Assembly: GCF_004117075.1 (NCBI RefSeq)
Contig: NZ_CP026721.1
Span: forward strand, 1,798,001 to 1,862,000
Origin: Fervidobacterium changbaicum
Lineage (GTDB): Bacteria > Thermotogota > Thermotogae > Thermotogales > Fervidobacteriaceae
DNA: 64,000 nt
Direction of reading: 5' to 3'
Of this stretch, positions 37,798 to 62,946 are shown piece by piece (position 1 is the stretch's first letter; each line of letters starts with the position of its first letter). Below the pieces are notes generated by a model. The model had not been told where the DNA came from and ran no database searches. It was given only the letters and a program-made list of their open reading frames with translations. Both the position numbers and the translations under genes were made by a program.

Positions 37798-38636
37798 GCT
37801 GTTAATTCATAATTATAGTGGAAGCTGATTGTGGAGCGACTATTTTGATATCATCAATGTAAAGCTCTGTCATTATCACACAAAAAGGATCCACATATAG
37901 CTTAATACTTCAATATTTTTGATTCTCGGTTTTATCTTGAATAATATAAGTAAAGTTTTGATTCATGGTTGTTTTTAACGAGTATTTATCAGGTAACGTA
38001 ACTATTGATTGAGTACCCACAACAGGTCTTCAGCGATAAAGCGCACTAAAAGTTTATACGTGCTAGAGTTACCGCCTTTTTTGTGTGTCAAGAAAATTGT
38101 CCGACAATGTCTAAAGTTGTCCCGTACCATGATATTTAGTTCAGAGTCATGTCAAGCAACAATTGGGTTCGTCTTATTCCTTATAAGTAGTACGAAAAGG
38201 ATAAATCGTTGTTGCTACATAGCGAGAGAGCTTTTAAAACAACGAAGAACGAAAGTTTAAAATTTGGGAAAAAATGATAGATGACGTAAGATAAACAGGG
38301 ACATATTCTTTTAAGTAACAAGGTTTTCAACAAAAAGCGAAGAGGGTATTACGGCCTTTGAATTCACATAATGGTTGGCAAAACATTTAGGATAAGAGAA
38401 AATGAAAAGCAGGGGCTTTTTGGAATATGATAGCATGAAAGATGCTTACAATCCAAGTAGAAAATGTTAACTTCCGTATGTGCCGCTACCGTTTTTGTGG
38501 ACAAGGAAGCTATTTGGGGCAGGATGATTTTCAACTCTGCTTGGTGTGCTATCTTCTTTTCAGAAGTACAGATTACGGTATTACCTGTGTAAAAGACAAT
38601 AAGTTCTTAGGTAAGTTTCAATACTTTTGTTTAACG
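37798..38636 (-). mobile_element. Strongly decayed copy of the TGTTAACT-ended IS
   Basis: Nothing here codes, but the whole stretch aligns by eye with the intact IS on its right. The right end GATGCTGTTAATTCATAAT and TTTTGATTCATGGTTGTTTTTAA match the transposase 3' part. GGATAAGAGAAAATG, CCGTATGTGCC and ACCGTTTTTG match the 5' part. The left end GTTTCAATACTTTTGTTTAAC ends at 38636. It is about 840 bases rather than 1024, so some parts are lost. It accounts for the 860-base gene-free gap. Confidence 0.7.
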
Positions 38637-38654
38637 TTATCATGAATTCGATAA

Positions 38655-39678
38655 TGTTAACTTGTAGTGATGAAAGTAGCTAACTGAGAAATGACATTAT
38701 TGATATTGCTCTTGTTGATTTTCCAAAGATTCTTCACTATACAAACATGAATATATAAATCAAGGTTCGCCAACTTCTTCAGACCTCGCTTAAGCCGGAA
38801 AAAGTCTTTCAGTAGTGAGAATTTGGATTCACACATGTTTTTACCAAGCGATACTACTACGTGATTGATATTCTTGAACAATATCTGTGCACTTTCATAT
38901 GCACCAAGACCGTCGGTAATAAGTTCGATACTTTTGTCTTTGGAATTACCTAAGAACTTTTCAAGTAGCACTTTTACCTGACCCATGTCACGATACTTTG
39001 AGACATGCCAGGAAAGGATAAGGTTAGTATCGTGGTCAACTAATAACCAGACATAATACTTTTGGTCTTTGAATACTACAATAGTTTCGTCAGCATGAAC
39101 TCTAAAAACATTTTCGAAAGTTGGAAAAAGCACAGAGAATAAAGCACACAACTTAATAACCCACTTGTAGATAGAAACATGAGAGACTTTGATATTCAAA
39201 GAGTTAGCAATAGTCCTGAAGGAACAATTGCCTTTCATATACAAAACGAAAGCTTCTAAGACAATAAAGATAGGGAAACGGAAGAATTTAAAGTAATCAG
39301 AAACAAAAGAGGCAGGTTCGGGGAGATTAAAAGGTACTCTATCTTTGGTATGACAAGTTCTACAACGGAAGACAACGAAAGAACGATGGGGTTTGTGGAT
39401 TTCCATAGATTTACCGCAAGAAGGGCATTTAGGGTAAGGGAAAGAGAAGATTTTGCGCTTTTGAGAATAAGAAAGTTTGAAAGTACGTTTGCAATTTTTG
39501 CAGAAGAATTGTTGGTTGCCGTATTTGTCATGACCGTTTTTGAAGACAAAGAGCCACACTTTGGGCAAGAAGGTGTTGAGTTATTCATATCGGGATACCT
39601 CCTTAAGAGTAGGTTGGGGGGTGTCCCCTGTTTAAAGGATAATGCGGTTTTTGGATAGTTTCAATACTTTTAGTTACA
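38655..39678 (-). mobile_element. IS with zinc-ribbon/DDE transposase, near complete
   Basis: 1024 bases between TGTTAAC (38655) and the other end GTTACA (39678, expected GTTAACA, one A lost). It has the same size and ends as the copies at 60-62.7 kb. The transposase reads on the minus strand. The left flank carries an 18-base spacer to an older copy. Confidence 0.88.
38657..39588 (-). pseudogene. DDE transposase (IS6/IS240-like with two zinc ribbons), frameshifted
   Basis: The N-terminal frame from ATG 39588 gives MNNSTPSCPKCGSL, the first zinc-ribbon half. The rest (KNGHDKYGNQQFFCKNCKRTF onward) lies in the -1 frame. Relative to the copy at 60751, four bases are missing after GGCTCT, which causes the shift. 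The remainder is intact: a second zinc-ribbon pair (CPSCGKSMEIHK, CRTCHTKD), a helix-turn-helix (TIANSLNIKVSHVSIYKWVI), and catalytic D-D-E in HADETIVV, ITDGLGAY and MCESKFSLL. The insertion separates the upstream glycosyltransferase genes from the polymerase gene. Confidence 0.85.
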
Positions 39679-39707
39679 TTATCATGAATCCTTTTGGGGG
39701 TGAAGTT

Positions 39708-40931
39708 TTGAAACTAATTAGAGCAACTTTTATTCTCAGTTTTGTAATCTTGATTGTAACTCCTTCCATATTGCCTGATTCTGTTGATTTTCTTTTAACA
39801 GTTCTAACCAATAAAAAAATTGGTAGGTTTTACATACCTTATAATCTATATTTTCTTCTAATACTCTTTGCTGCGTATTTTTTGACGTCTTTTCTTTTAG
39901 GTATTGTAAAGGTCGCTTTGGCTAAGACACGTAACCCGATTAAGAAGAGCTACGTTATATTGTGTCTCCTTCTACTTATAGTATTCATCGTTCCTGATTT
40001 TTTTCTGACGAAAGCTTATGATAAGGTACTAATTGCCTATGGAAACGTTTTGTTACCTTTTTTTGTTTTTTATCTTGCTTTCAAGGAAACAAGCAGATGT
40101 TTTAGAAGAACTTTCCTTGGACTTCTTTATTTAGTATACTTTTTCATCGTTTTTCAAGTCATATATTTCTCGTTAGTCAACCCTAGAATATCATGGACAC
40201 ACGAAATTGTACAATTCCTTGGTTTTCGAATACACAGGGTTACAGTCACGTCTGGTCCAGCAACAGCTACCTCATTCATTATTATCGCACTGTACGTGCT
40301 CCTAAAAACCTTAGAAGGTAATACCAAACTAATCAAACTCCTGACTGTGTTAGCTGTTGTTTCAGTTTTTCTAACCCTCACAAGAACAGCACTGATCATC
40401 ATTTCAATTATGGTAGTCAAGGATATTCTGTCATTTAGACTAAGAAAAGCAGATAAGTTGCCATTTTTTGCTGCAATTCTTCTCTTATTCTTACTTATAT
40501 TTTTTTTATTGTTTATTAACAGATGGTTATATGGTCATGGGGTTGAGGGTGACAGGTATAGGTTATTGCGACTTACCGAAGCAGTGCAAATATACAAAAA
40601 GGGCGACATTCTTCACAAGACATTCGGAACAGGCTTTGGAACTTCCTATACGCGACAAATTAGCAACATATCATATCTGGAAAATGTGGAGGATTTTTAT
40701 CTCAAATCCCCTCATAATACTCATGTCATATTAATTAACGAGATTGGATTTTTAAGATTGTCAATACTATGCATTATTTTTGCTTTTTTAGTAAGAAAGG
40801 CAAAAACTCCGCTAAAAGAGTTCATTGTACTAACGCTCGTGGTTGGTATGAATACAGAAGTGATTTATATTTACCACTTTTGGAACTGGGCTTTTATAGC
40901 AACTTTGGCTGGAGCTGCTTTTGAAATGTAA
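39708..40931 (+). CDS. wzy: O-antigen polymerase-type membrane protein (Wzy)
   Basis: 407 residues from TTG 39708, which follows GGGGGTG by 6 bases. An ATG at 39684 lacks a ribosome site and lies at the IS border. Ten to twelve hydrophobic segments cover most of the protein, with a larger soluble loop at ~290-345 (RWLYGHGVEGDRYRLLRLTE, FGTGFGTSYT, KSPHNTHVILINEIGF). The GTG-x-G and SPHNxxL-x-x-x-x-E-x-G motifs are the Wzy/O-antigen-ligase signature. It joins repeat units on undecaprenyl diphosphate outside the membrane. Its upstream end directly abuts an IS, so its promoter may come from it. Confidence 0.88.
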   Translation: MKLIRATFILSFVILIVTPSILPDSVDFLLTVLTNKKIGRFYIPYNLYFLLILFAAYFLTSFLLGIVKVALAKTRNPIKKSYVILCLLLLIVFIVPDFFLTKAYDKVLIAYGNVLLPFFVFYLAFKETSRCFRRTFLGLLYLVYFFIVFQVIYFSLVNPRISWTHEIVQFLGFRIHRVTVTSGPATATSFIIIALYVLLKTLEGNTKLIKLLTVLAVVSVFLTLTRTALIIISIMVVKDILSFRLRKADKLPFFAAILLLFLLIFFLLFINRWLYGHGVEGDRYRLLRLTEAVQIYKKGDILHKTFGTGFGTSYTRQISNISYLENVEDFYLKSPHNTHVILINEIGFLRLSILCIIFAFLVRKAKTPLKEFIVLTLVVGMNTEVIYIYHFWNWAFIATLAGAAFEM

Positions 40932-59785: not shown

Positions 59786-60622
59786 TTAACCGTGGATTAT
59801 CCCGCATATTCTACTTAGCAAGAACTGTCGTGCTTGCTCGTTTTTTGGCACTTCCACAATTCCACAACCCATAAATTTCCCTTCGGAACTTTTTCGCAAA
59901 AACGGCCGAAGTCTGGTCCTAAAAACTTCGATGGAAGGTGTATAACCTTTCAATACCCCATTGAAAATTCCAGCACAGTAATCACATAGCTGAATTCCAA
60001 AGCTATGATGTGATAACTCGAAAGACAAGCTATCTTTTATATGCTTGTACTTCTTGATAAAGTCTCCGCACAGATAAATCTGCCTGTAAGCTTCTCTTAT
60101 CGAACGGTCGGCTTCGCGCCCAATAGGGTCTAAGAATAAGATAGCTATGTTATCCTGACTATACTGTATCTCCATTTCTACTCTTTGCATAGTATCTTGA
60201 AGATGCATTTCGTATATTTTCTGGGTTTTTATCGGGGGAGTAAATTTAGGGTCGTTCAGTGTGACTGTTTAGAAAATTTTGCAGAAACGACATTTACTAA
60301 GCAAACTCAGAGACTCTATCACAAACTTGAGTAAATGATCTACTGGAATATCTTCCAGAGATAACAAATTTTTAGACTTTAATGGCTCGCCCTTCTCTTG
60401 ATGTTTCTTTAGAATCCACATGTCGGACCATTTTATTTCTATTCCAATAGGTATTTGGTAAGATTCTTTTAGTTTATAAAATTCATCTTTTAACTGAAGC
60501 CAGTCGTTCGAATCCATAATTAAGGAAGCTCTGACATAAAAGGGAGTTTTCTTCACAAATTTGTCGCCTCGGATTTCCTTATAGCTACCCGACTCGTCGG
60601 AAAAGACGAAAAACGTAGCCAT
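59786..60622 (-). pseudogene. DUF3800 protein interrupted by one in-frame stop
   Basis: From ATG 60622 (after GGAGGTG) the frame reads MATFFVFSDESGSYKEIRG, the DUF3800 opening with the conserved D-E-S-G, and runs 116 codons. A TAA at 60269-60271 follows KCRFCKIF. The same frame continues without shift (TVTLNDPKFTPPIKTQK) to the natural end at 59786, including ALSFELSHHSFGIQLCDYCA with the second conserved aspartate. So only one base change separates it from a ~277-residue intact protein. DUF3800 proteins have an RNase H-like fold of unknown role, often near mobile elements. An IS lies 30 bases upstream. Confidence 0.8.
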
Positions 60623-60651
60623 GATTACACCTCCTATCAGCAAGTTGATGC

Positions 60652-61682
60652 TGTTAACTAAAAGTATTGAAAATTTCCAAAAACCGTATTATCTTCTTAT
60701 TAGTGGAACACCCCCCACCATCAATTCTCACAAAAAGGAGGTACTCCACTATGCAAAATTCTGTAGTCTCTTGCCCCAAATGCGGCTCTACCAACATCTA
60801 CAAAAACGGTCATGATAAGTACGGTAACCAACAATACTTTTGCAAAGACTGTAAGCGCACTTTCAGACTTGTTCATTCAAAAAAACACAAGCTCTTCTCT
60901 TTCCCTTATCCTAAATGCCCTGTCTGTGGAAAAACTATGCAAATCCACAAAATCAAAAAAGCCTTCGTTAAGTTCCGTTGCCGTTCTTGCCATACCAGAG
61001 ACGAAATCCCAACTAACTTACCTCAATTTGTCCCTCTTCCTTTCGACTCTTTCAAGTTCTTCCGTTTCCCTATCTTTATTGTCCTTAAAGCCTTCGTCCT
61101 TTATTTCAAAGCTGTGTCCTTGCGTTCCATCAGAGACTCACTTAATATCAAAGTCTCTCATGTCGCTATCTACAAGTGGATCCTTAAGTTGTCTTGTTTC
61201 TTTTCCATCCTCGTTCCTGTAGATGCTTTCAAAGTCCATGGTGATGAAACTGTCGTTTTGTTTAAATCCAAAAAGTACTACGTTTGGTTCTTAGTTGAGC
61301 ACGATTCGAATCTTATTGTTGCTTGGCATGTATCCAAATATCGCGATATGGGTCAAGTGAAGATATTGTTAGAGAAGTTCTTTGGTAACAACGAAAGAAC
61401 AATCGAACTAATTACAGATGGACTTGGTGCATATGGTGCAGTGAAGATACTATACAAGAATATCAATCATATTGTTGTGAGACTTGGGCAAAACAATCAA
61501 TGTGAATCGAAGTTTTCGTTATTCCAAGACTTTGTACGAGCCAAGCGTGGATTTAAGAATATTGACAATCTTCCAATGTACGTGAACAGCTTTTGTGTAG
61601 TGAGAAATCTCTTGAAACTGAACAACAATGATATTGCGCGTGTTATCTGTGTTCTATTGTCTTCCATCACTACAAGTTAACA
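60652..61682 (+). mobile_element. Intact copy of the TGTTAACT-ended IS
   Basis: 1031 bases from TGTTAACTAAAAGTATTGAA to the inverted end CATCACTACAAGTTAACA. Terminal repeats are short: TGTTAACT is perfect, the next ~10 bases partial. It carries one full-length transposase gene. It is followed, after an 18-base spacer, by a second copy in the same direction. Confidence 0.9.
60751..61680 (+). CDS. DDE transposase with two zinc ribbons (IS6/IS240-like)
   Basis: 309 residues from ATG 60751, after AAGGAGG. First zinc ribbon C9-x2-C12 (SCPKCGSTNIY) with C29-x2-C32 (YFCKDCKRTF). Second with CPVCGKTMQIHK and CRSCHTRDE. Helix-turn-helix: SLRSIRDSLNIKVSHVAIYK. Catalytic triad: D in HGDETVVLF, D in LITDGLGAYG (58 residues on) and E in QCESKFSLF (about 29 more). 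Frame is complete and no catalytic residue is missing, so it may be active and able to act on the shorter copies. The nearest family by eye is IS6/IS240, but the double zinc ribbon is unusual for that group. The stop codon TAA lies within the terminal GTTAACA. Confidence 0.85.
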   Translation: MQNSVVSCPKCGSTNIYKNGHDKYGNQQYFCKDCKRTFRLVHSKKHKLFSFPYPKCPVCGKTMQIHKIKKAFVKFRCRSCHTRDEIPTNLPQFVPLPFDSFKFFRFPIFIVLKAFVLYFKAVSLRSIRDSLNIKVSHVAIYKWILKLSCFFSILVPVDAFKVHGDETVVLFKSKKYYVWFLVEHDSNLIVAWHVSKYRDMGQVKILLEKFFGNNERTIELITDGLGAYGAVKILYKNINHIVVRLGQNNQCESKFSLFQDFVRAKRGFKNIDNLPMYVNSFCVVRNLLKLNNNDIARVICVLLSSITTS

Positions 61683-61700
61683 GGATCATCAATTCGATAC

Positions 61701-62724
61701 TGTTAACTAAAAGTATTGAAAATTTCCAAAATCCGCATTATTCTTTAAGAAGGGGACACCCCCCTCAATAATCTTCAAAAGGAGGTATCCCATCATGCAA
61801 AACCAAAAACCTTCCTGCCCCAAATGTGGTTCAACAAACACCTACAAAAACGGCCATGATAAGTACCACAATCAACAGTATTTCTGCAAAGACTGCAAAC
61901 GCTCCTTCAAACTTACTCACTGCCAAAAGCATAAACTCTTCCCTTTCCCTTATCCTAAATGCCCTAAGTGCGGCAAAACCATGGAAATCTACAAAATTCG
62001 TCACGCTTTTGTTGTCTTCCGTTGTAGGCCTTGCCATACCAAAGATAGAATCCCTACCAACTTACCTCAGCCTGTTCCTCTTCCCTTCGATTCTTTCAAG
62101 TTCTTCCGCTTCCCTATCTTCATCGTCCTTAAGGCTTTCGTCTTGTACTTCAAAGGCAATATATCTTTACGCTCGCTCAGAGACTCACTCAATATCAAAG
62201 TATCCCACGTCGCTATTTACAAACGGATCCTTAAGCTATCTTCTTTCTTTTCCATCCTCATTCCTGAGAACGTCTCCAAAGTTCATGGTGAAAATTGTTT
62301 TGTTTAAATCCAAAAAGTACTACGTTTGGTTCTTAGTTGAACACAATTCCAATCTTATTGTTGCTTGGCATGTATCCAAGTATCGTGATATGGGTCAGGT
62401 GAAGATATTGTTAGAGAAGTTCTTTGGTAACAACGAAGGAGAAATCGAACTAATCACTGATGGACTTGGTGCGTATGGTGCAGTGAAGATACTATACAAG
62501 AATATCAATCATATTTTTGTGAGACTTGGGCAAAACAATCAATGTGAATCTAAATTTTCCTTATTCCAAGACTTTGTACGAGCCAAGCGTGGATTCAAGA
62601 ATATTGAGAATCTTCCAATGTACGTAAATAGCTTTTGTGTAGTGAGAAATCTCTTGAAACTGAACGGGAATGATATTGCGCGTGTTATGAGTGTTCTATT
62701 GTCTTCCATCACTACAAGTTAACA
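61701..62724 (+). mobile_element. Second tandem copy of the IS, transposase broken
   Basis: 1024 bases, same direction and same ends as the previous copy, starting 18 bases after it. A separate small-sequence lineage in the first half (MQNQKPSCPKCGSTNTY) but near identical in the last ~400 bases to the previous copy, which suggests gene conversion. Confidence 0.9.
61795..62722 (+). pseudogene. DDE transposase, frameshifted at the first catalytic aspartate
   Basis: From ATG 61795 the frame is good for 165 codons up to SKVHGEN, then stops at 62307. Compared with the first copy (GGTGATGAAACTGTCGTTTT), five bases are missing in GGTGAAAATTGTTTT, which deletes the D of HGDET and shifts the frame. 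The remainder (VLFKSKKYYVWFLVEHNSNL onward to SSITTS) is intact in the other frame. It cannot be catalytic. Confidence 0.9.
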
Positions 62725-62946
62725 GCATCCGCGTTTTGAACGGTTTAGGTGTTACAAGATTAAAAAGTTCAAAAAAACTCGCAGTTAATTAAAAGTGAAA
62801 ACAGCTCTTGTGGTAATTTTGCCATGGCGTTTATTTCAGAGTTATGGTACAGCAAATGTCAAGCTATACATAGGCCAAATGATATGTCTTTACTAAAGCG
62901 ATATTAAACTTACATTAGTTTATCAGAGCTCTACTTATTTTTGTTA
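62725..62946. other. Gene-free interval
   Basis: 220 bases between the IS and the OLD-type gene; no hairpin terminator is visible. Confidence 0.4.

Follow-up and report, generated by a model that had tools for sequence, protein, structure and literature searches.

The question raised by this locus is why two tandem junctions of an insertion sequence (IS) are separated by nearly the same short spacer, and what this says about how the element chooses its targets. The window, i.e. the whole stretch of 64,000 nucleotides that was analysed, comprises bases 1798001-1862000 of the Fervidobacterium changbaicum genome, a single contig of 2,266,349 bp with 45 transposase matches, 28 of them near full length. 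Spacer 1, TTATCATGAATTCGATAA, is located at 38637-38654, and spacer 2, GGATCATCAATTCGATAC, lies where two copies adjoin within 60647-62729, between their TGTTAAC-type ends. Both are indeed 18 bases long and identical at 14 of 18 positions, as had been noticed in a sequence-only reading, which also correctly reported that TTATCATGAAT is present again at 39679-39689, the far end of the copy. It was suggested there that the sites are not random, and that the IS either prefers its own end plus a fixed spacing or extends further than its TGTTAAC ends.

The last of these suggestions proved right. When all copies were lined up, the true left ends were found to read GATGC, GATAC, GATAA or GATTT, 5 bp outside TGTTAAC, and the true right ends GCATC, GGATC, CTATC or TTATC; the element extends by 5 bp on each side and has 8-bp direct repeats immediately next to it, such as CTGTGGTG, GCTAAATT and GAATTCTT. 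The TTATC/GGATC and GATAA/GATAC of the two spacers are these outer 5 bp, which occur in other copies as well, and each spacer is made up of 5 bases of right end, 8 of duplication and 5 of left end, i.e. 18 in total. Element ends supply 7 of the 14 matching bases, and the DNA in each spacer that does not belong to the element is reduced to 8 bases, ATGAATTC (38642-38649) and ATCAATTC (61688-61695). Likewise, TTATCATGAAT at 39679 consists of the left end of the same copy and its other duplication (GGATTCAT as compared to GAATTCAT). The two 8-mers match at 7 of 8 positions, in opposite orientation relative to their elements. Among the 61 different exact 8-bp duplications, a similarity of 7/8 or better on either strand is reached by 16 of 1830 pairs (0.9%); the likeness is a matter of chance and the 8-mers are unrelated. 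A derivation of one from the other was rejected, because one is the element's own leader site and the other a local pre-gene sequence in opposite orientation. The 18-mer was also rejected as a distinct target or repeat, since it has a single match in the window at up to 3 mismatches and the gaps of other tandems are unrelated to it. The spacer observation itself is thus ordinary, two element ends and one duplication. What causes its fixed length is not, and would lie in the choice of a Shine-Dalgarno motif as target, in a register of almost single-base precision and in a fixed orientation.

The window contains this arrangement at both loci. Intact copy A (1041 bp, 60647..61687, plus strand, ends GATGCTGTTAAC...GTTAACAGGATC) encodes its transposase, TnpA (P0001, about 309 aa), at 60751-61680 on the same strand. 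To its left lies the 8-bp target copy AGCAAGTT (60639..60646, plus strand), whose partner is missing right of the array, and exactly at -17 to -13 of the left end (60630..60634) stands CCTCC, i.e. GGAGG on the minus strand, where it serves as putative Shine-Dalgarno sequence of a divergent minus-strand ORF with its ATG at 60622 (CAT at 60620-60622). Across the 8-bp gap ATCAATTC (61688..61695, plus strand) follows copy B (1034 bp, 61696..62729, plus strand, ends GATAC.../...GCATC); its tnpA is frameshifted and a mosaic, with 77% identity to P0001 in the N-terminal and 93% in the C-terminal part. The leader of copy A carries an internal copy of the target motif, a CCCCCC run at 60711..60716 (plus strand), and ATCAATTC recurs 3 bases past this run, at 60720-60727, which makes the leader a self-target. 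The second locus is occupied by a copy of a 65% identity subfamily (1034 bp, 38650..39683, minus strand, ends GATAATGTAAC.../...GTTAACATTATC), with its tnpA ORF at 38657-39568 on the minus strand. Its right target copy (GAATTCAT on the minus strand, 38642..38649) is at the same time the gap to a decayed older copy, recognisable over 38383..38641 (minus strand), with its left end GATAACGTTAAAC running from 38641 to 38629 and a remnant of the zinc ribbon at 38383-38529. Its left target copy (GGATTCAT on the minus strand, 39684..39691) is identical to the right one at 7 of 8 positions, and GGGGG at 39696..39700 (plus strand), again exactly at -17 to -13 of the left end, is the putative Shine-Dalgarno sequence of an ORF from TTG 39708 to 40931.

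The generality of this pattern was evaluated in six genomes of the genus, in which at least 123 copies were found among the matches listed. Second copies of tandems (6), copies inserted in the IS leader (2) and copies at the ends of contigs (2) were removed, which left 113, and dropping of repeated sites with exact or near-identical flanks gave 106 distinct sites; right flanks were counted at 98 of these, because they are absent for the other 8. Left out of the counts were L043, L134-L136 (which repeat L042, L053 and L057) and some partial matches. Full copies in the genus are nearly all 1034-1059 bp long and their transposases have about 309-318 aa. An exact 8-bp target duplication is present at 61 of the 106 sites; by the test used, a matching duplication is missing at 39, some of which are accounted for by flank exchange between copies.

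Such exchange can be followed in several cases. Flanking 8-mers are swapped pairwise between L040/L046, L062/L065, L064/L068 and L159/L160, and in a three-way cycle among L014, L024 and L026; these swaps would be the trace of chromosome or plasmid rearrangements that came about as one copy recombined with another. In the F. changbaicum genome, L009/L022 and L010/L023, near 16 kb and 2239 kb, show the same arrangement of an IS and a truncated IS; as their flanks are identical too, the segment may well have been duplicated. Furthermore, derivatives of approximately 389 bp (L117-L132, L042, L048, L053 and L057) retain both ends and an open frame of roughly 60-100 codons with the double zinc ribbon. 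They have the same target motif as full copies, and could be non-autonomous passengers or genes for a small zinc-ribbon protein.

Outward from the left end, the flanks show the 8-bp duplication, then 3-4 free bases and then a sharp C-rich block. Over the 106 sites, on which the motif was also defined, C is found at -13 in 92%, at -14 in 94%, at -16 in 88% and at -17 in 77%, and C or T at -15 in 96%. CCYCC is perfect at -17 to -13 in 66 of 106 sites and matches in at least four of five bases in 93, as compared to 0.08% (perfect) and 1.46% (at least 4/5) for any position in the window. In the mirrored right flank the C-rich block is absent, with no perfect motif and only one of at least 4/5 among 98 sites. 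The best match begins at -17 in 76 sites, at -16 in 18, at -15 in 5, at -18 in 4 and elsewhere in 3; hence, 103 of 106 fall between -18 and -15. From centre to centre, motif and duplication are 10.5 bp, one helix turn, apart. By subfamily, at least 4/5 of the motif is present in 18/19, 47/56 and 15/17 sites, and in 13/14 of those of the approximately 389-bp non-autonomous copies. Most of the 13 sites with less than 4/5 in exact register have a C-rich block 1-2 nt off, and L058 is without any. The sequence-only reading was thus correct that the sites are not random, the copies favouring CCYCC/GGRGG on their left-end side.

At one locus the motif is older than the insertion: the site of a tandem in genome G000 is empty in G002 and G004 and already carries the C-run and a single target copy there. 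Moreover, L028 in G000 and L055 in G004 lie before orthologous starts with different duplications, each of them internally matching, and seem to have inserted independently at one address.

On the complementary strand CCYCC reads GGRGG, and at 92 of the 106 sites an ATG, GTG or TTG with an open frame of at least 40 codons follows 3-10 nt past it, mostly 7. Judged from these reading frames, the element sits directly upstream of putative Shine-Dalgarno sequences, with the genes pointing away from it. GGGGG and GGAGG occur 31 and 35 times among the sites, as compared to 5 and 19 times among the start regions of the window, and this excess of GGGGG hints at a direct reading of G-runs. A gene start follows just 42 of the 98 GGRGG in the window, as against 92 of 106 sites, so the motif alone does not explain where the element sits; insertions within genes are probably also selected against, or, alternatively, a further signal contributes. 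The motif is retained at 9 of the 14 sites without gene start. One copy lies with the motif inside a 16S rRNA gene (L067 in G004), and weaker motifs of 3/5 accompany copies in a 23S rRNA gene (L050 in G003) and approximately 10 bp from a tRNA gene (L096). The two rRNA insertions were presumably tolerated thanks to other operons. In L006, L008 and L013 the element has inserted into itself, at the CCCCCC run of its leader; together with the insertion into the 16S rRNA gene, these cases indicate that the DNA motif suffices and translation is not needed.

A run of 5-6 C, oriented like the target motif, is present at approximately base 65 of the left end in most subfamilies, and the Cetobacterium leader has one at approximately base 74. 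As RNA, the leader can also form a hairpin, the right arm of which reaches into the ribosome-binding site of tnpA (60700-60755 in copy A; also in L024, L052, L083, L137 and L147). Its arms are AGTGGA.../...TCCACT in one subfamily and GGGGACACC.../...GGTATCCC in others; as judged by eye and uncounted, they seem to co-vary between subfamilies, which suggests that translation of the transposase may be controlled in this way. No outward sigma-70-like promoter was found in the one copy whose left end was examined for it.

Tandems fit the same target choice. Eight distinct junctions were compared, with gaps of 8 bases in six and 7 bases in two of them, the 8-base gaps being TGTAAGGT, ATCAATTC, GAATTCAT, CACGCTTC and TTTAGTTC, and TCACATCG in another genus. 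Regarding the shared spacer, the fixed length therefore stands, while the likeness in sequence is not general: the gap sequences of the other tandem pairs are unrelated, yet their lengths are constant at 7-8 bases. In L008/L015 an identical 8-mer stands on both sides and between the copies, as it does in L102 when one base is allowed to differ. Tandems would arise because the motif and one 8-bp copy survive the insertion and can serve again. The window pair at 38650 matches this re-use: its intact copy has GGGGG (39696-39700) on one side and the decayed copy on the other. Because the outer flanks of the pair at 60647-62729, AGCAAGTT and CGCGTTTT, differ from each other, this pair is best explained by insertion into the leader of an IS and subsequent recombination, a history that we reconstruct from the flanks.

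Could selection alone have produced the pattern, in that insertion is near random and only insertions into 5' leaders are kept since there no gene is broken? The 92 of 106 sites before a start codon, as compared to 42 of 98 for the motif in the window, are in line with it, and selection probably contributes. But selection does not fix a distance to 1-2 nt, as seen in the 103 of 106 best matches at -18 to -15, nor an orientation such as that shown by the right flank with its 1 of 98; it does not account for the motif kept at 9 of 14 sites without gene start either. Furthermore, ISL3-type copies (G003), another IS of the same genus, mostly with 8-bp duplications, showed no in-register motif (0 of 8 sites); such copies were found in one of the four genomes compared. 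Hence, we regard survivor bias as a very improbable explanation of the whole pattern.

Even less credit is given to the view, close to the preference for the IS's own end proposed in the sequence-only reading, that a resident copy attracts the transposase, as with IS26, and that the new insertion falls 8 bp from the end of that copy. The eight tandem junctions with gaps of 7-8 bp would be expected from it, and targeted conservative cointegrate formation is described for IS26 in the accessible text of PMC6807381. However, most copies are solitary and lie beside the motif, the motif is in place also for tandem copies at the motif side, and the self-insertions in the leader follow its CCCCCC run and not an element end, so that the preference common to the copies is for CCYCC/GGRGG on the left-end side and the proposal found no support. 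A third possibility starts from the similarity between the target strand and the anti-Shine-Dalgarno tail of 16S rRNA. Targeting could then be RNA-guided or linked to ribosomes or transcripts, with which the identity of the motif and the same-sense C-run in the leader of most subfamilies would agree. But insertions in the 16S rRNA gene and beside a tRNA gene need no translation start, and a protein that reads a short G-run is the simpler assumption, which makes targeting via RNA or ribosomes quite unlikely.

We therefore favour, with a probability of roughly 0.87, the reading that the ISCpe7-like transposase picks its target by the DNA sequence GGRGG, in fixed register and orientation, and that the site can be used again, which would lead to tandems. 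Strand transfer would occur at an 8-bp staggered cut centred about 10.5 bp, a full turn of the helix, away from the middle of GGRGG, and the left end of the inserted element would face the motif. Since GGRGG is the Shine-Dalgarno core, most insertions would come to lie just 5' of a ribosome-binding site, which together with the reading frame would stay intact. After insertion the order would be motif, 8-mer, IS, 8-mer, the left part of which is still a full target, and the next copy could enter between motif and old copy to give motif, 8-mer, new IS, 8-mer, old IS, 8-mer. The resulting IS-8bp-IS tandems would read as 18-base spacers if the ends are taken as TGTTAAC. The ends, duplications, motif, register and orientation, the motif at the empty sites of one locus and the pattern in relatives are read from the DNA itself. 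That the transposase itself reads the motif we infer from them, as we do the order of events in tandems; the zinc ribbons would be a guess for the reader. Because the orientation is fixed, left and right ends must be distinguished, presumably in the transposition complex. With motif and duplication one helix turn apart, a DNA-binding part beside the active site could be in contact with the two at once.

The transposase combines two zinc ribbons (PF03811 at 5-34 and PF12760 at 53-81) with a DDE domain of IS240/IS6 type (PF13610, 109 bits against a cut-off of 27); the IS6 equivalog NF033587 scores 69.6 bits, under its cut-off of 125. Eight cysteines, D164, D222 and E251 are invariant in five sequences from three genera, down to 30% identity, and CxxC pairs are present in the N-terminal zinc-binding extension. 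Relatives from other genera were inspected after the motif had been defined. The sole copy in G018, another genus, has CCTCC in exact register. In a third genus (G010), where the relative has 37% identity and about 1313 bp, L147 and L149 show 8-bp duplications and 4/5 of the motif in register before a start codon, and L151 is an IS-TCACATCG-IS tandem with an 8-bp gap. L150, without motif or duplication, and L152, with a C-rich flank and no duplication, do not follow the pattern. Of the remaining matches, L153 and L154 are partial and L148 starts at a contig end. On a Cetobacterium plasmid (30% identity, same architecture) CCCCC and CAT precede the left end of all three copies, with an offset of 1-2 nt outwards, and one copy lies before an annotated ggt gene.

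A scan of genome contigs with P0001 returned 7 distant or partial relatives. The search for ends by inverted repeats and duplications found both positive controls (L155 and L012) and none for L031-L036, L161, L186 and L187, L037 being left out. The viral contig L161, excluded from the counts, has CCCCC and CAT before its left end, and no duplication was found there. For the 34% relatives L080, L081 and L133 the ends cannot be read, because their flanks are common to three genomes. Phage records gave no transposase match, plasmid records matched only in Cetobacterium, and among solved structures only zinc fingers matched, with weak score.

Taken more broadly, it seems likely, at a lower confidence than the reading above, that a widespread clade of zinc-ribbon DDE transposases, kept in both Thermotogota and Fusobacteriota, recognises the Shine-Dalgarno core in DNA as its address and integrates at a distance of one helical turn in fixed orientation, sparing ribosome-binding site and frame. 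It would be the first transposon family known to be aimed at translation-initiation signals. In the open-access literature, with subscription papers largely outside, no earlier report of an IS aimed at Shine-Dalgarno sequences was found. If true, this short, registered and orientation-locked target would make a good model for sequence-guided DDE integration, would help to explain tens of copies in small genomes without broken genes, and might provide a tool that puts a cassette directly before genes.

The element is an ISCpe7-like (zinc-ribbon, IS6-related) IS, the link to ISCpe7 following the naming in the accessible part of PMC5398504, according to which ISCpe7-like copies are the commonest IS in Fervidobacterium. 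The accessible text of PMC6807381 treats the zinc-finger members (IS6 family clade VII/h) as distinct from IS26 and notes that experimental data on this branch, its longer bacterial members included, could not be found; there and in the same part of PMC5398504 no target specificity of ISCpe7-like elements is described, and the corresponding part of PMC7986276 names no target for zinc-finger members. ISCpe7-like IS share with this element the zinc ribbons before an IS6/IS240-type DDE domain and the 8-bp duplications, but the members listed in the accessible text of PMC6807381 have 1226-1349 bp and 340-353 aa, a range that describes them and is not a strict criterion, as compared to 1034-1059 bp and about 309-318 aa here. 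With IS26 and IS6 sensu stricto the PF13610 DDE domain and 8-bp duplications are common features. The same text gives IS26-type ends starting with GG and an E-DH/E-SH signature, whereas here the ends start with GAT and E is followed by SK. Instead of the G at positions 1, 2 and 7 of IS6/IS26 ends, GATGCTG/GATAATG have G at 1 and 7 and A at 2. IS26 is not known to have a sequence target. A parallel in target choice is offered by the IS that target REP sequences (ISPsy8, ISPa11, ISPpu9 and ISRm22), which, according to the accessible text of PMC1525189, likewise prefer an extragenic DNA motif; their target is an extragenic palindrome, whereas that of the present element is the Shine-Dalgarno core before many genes.
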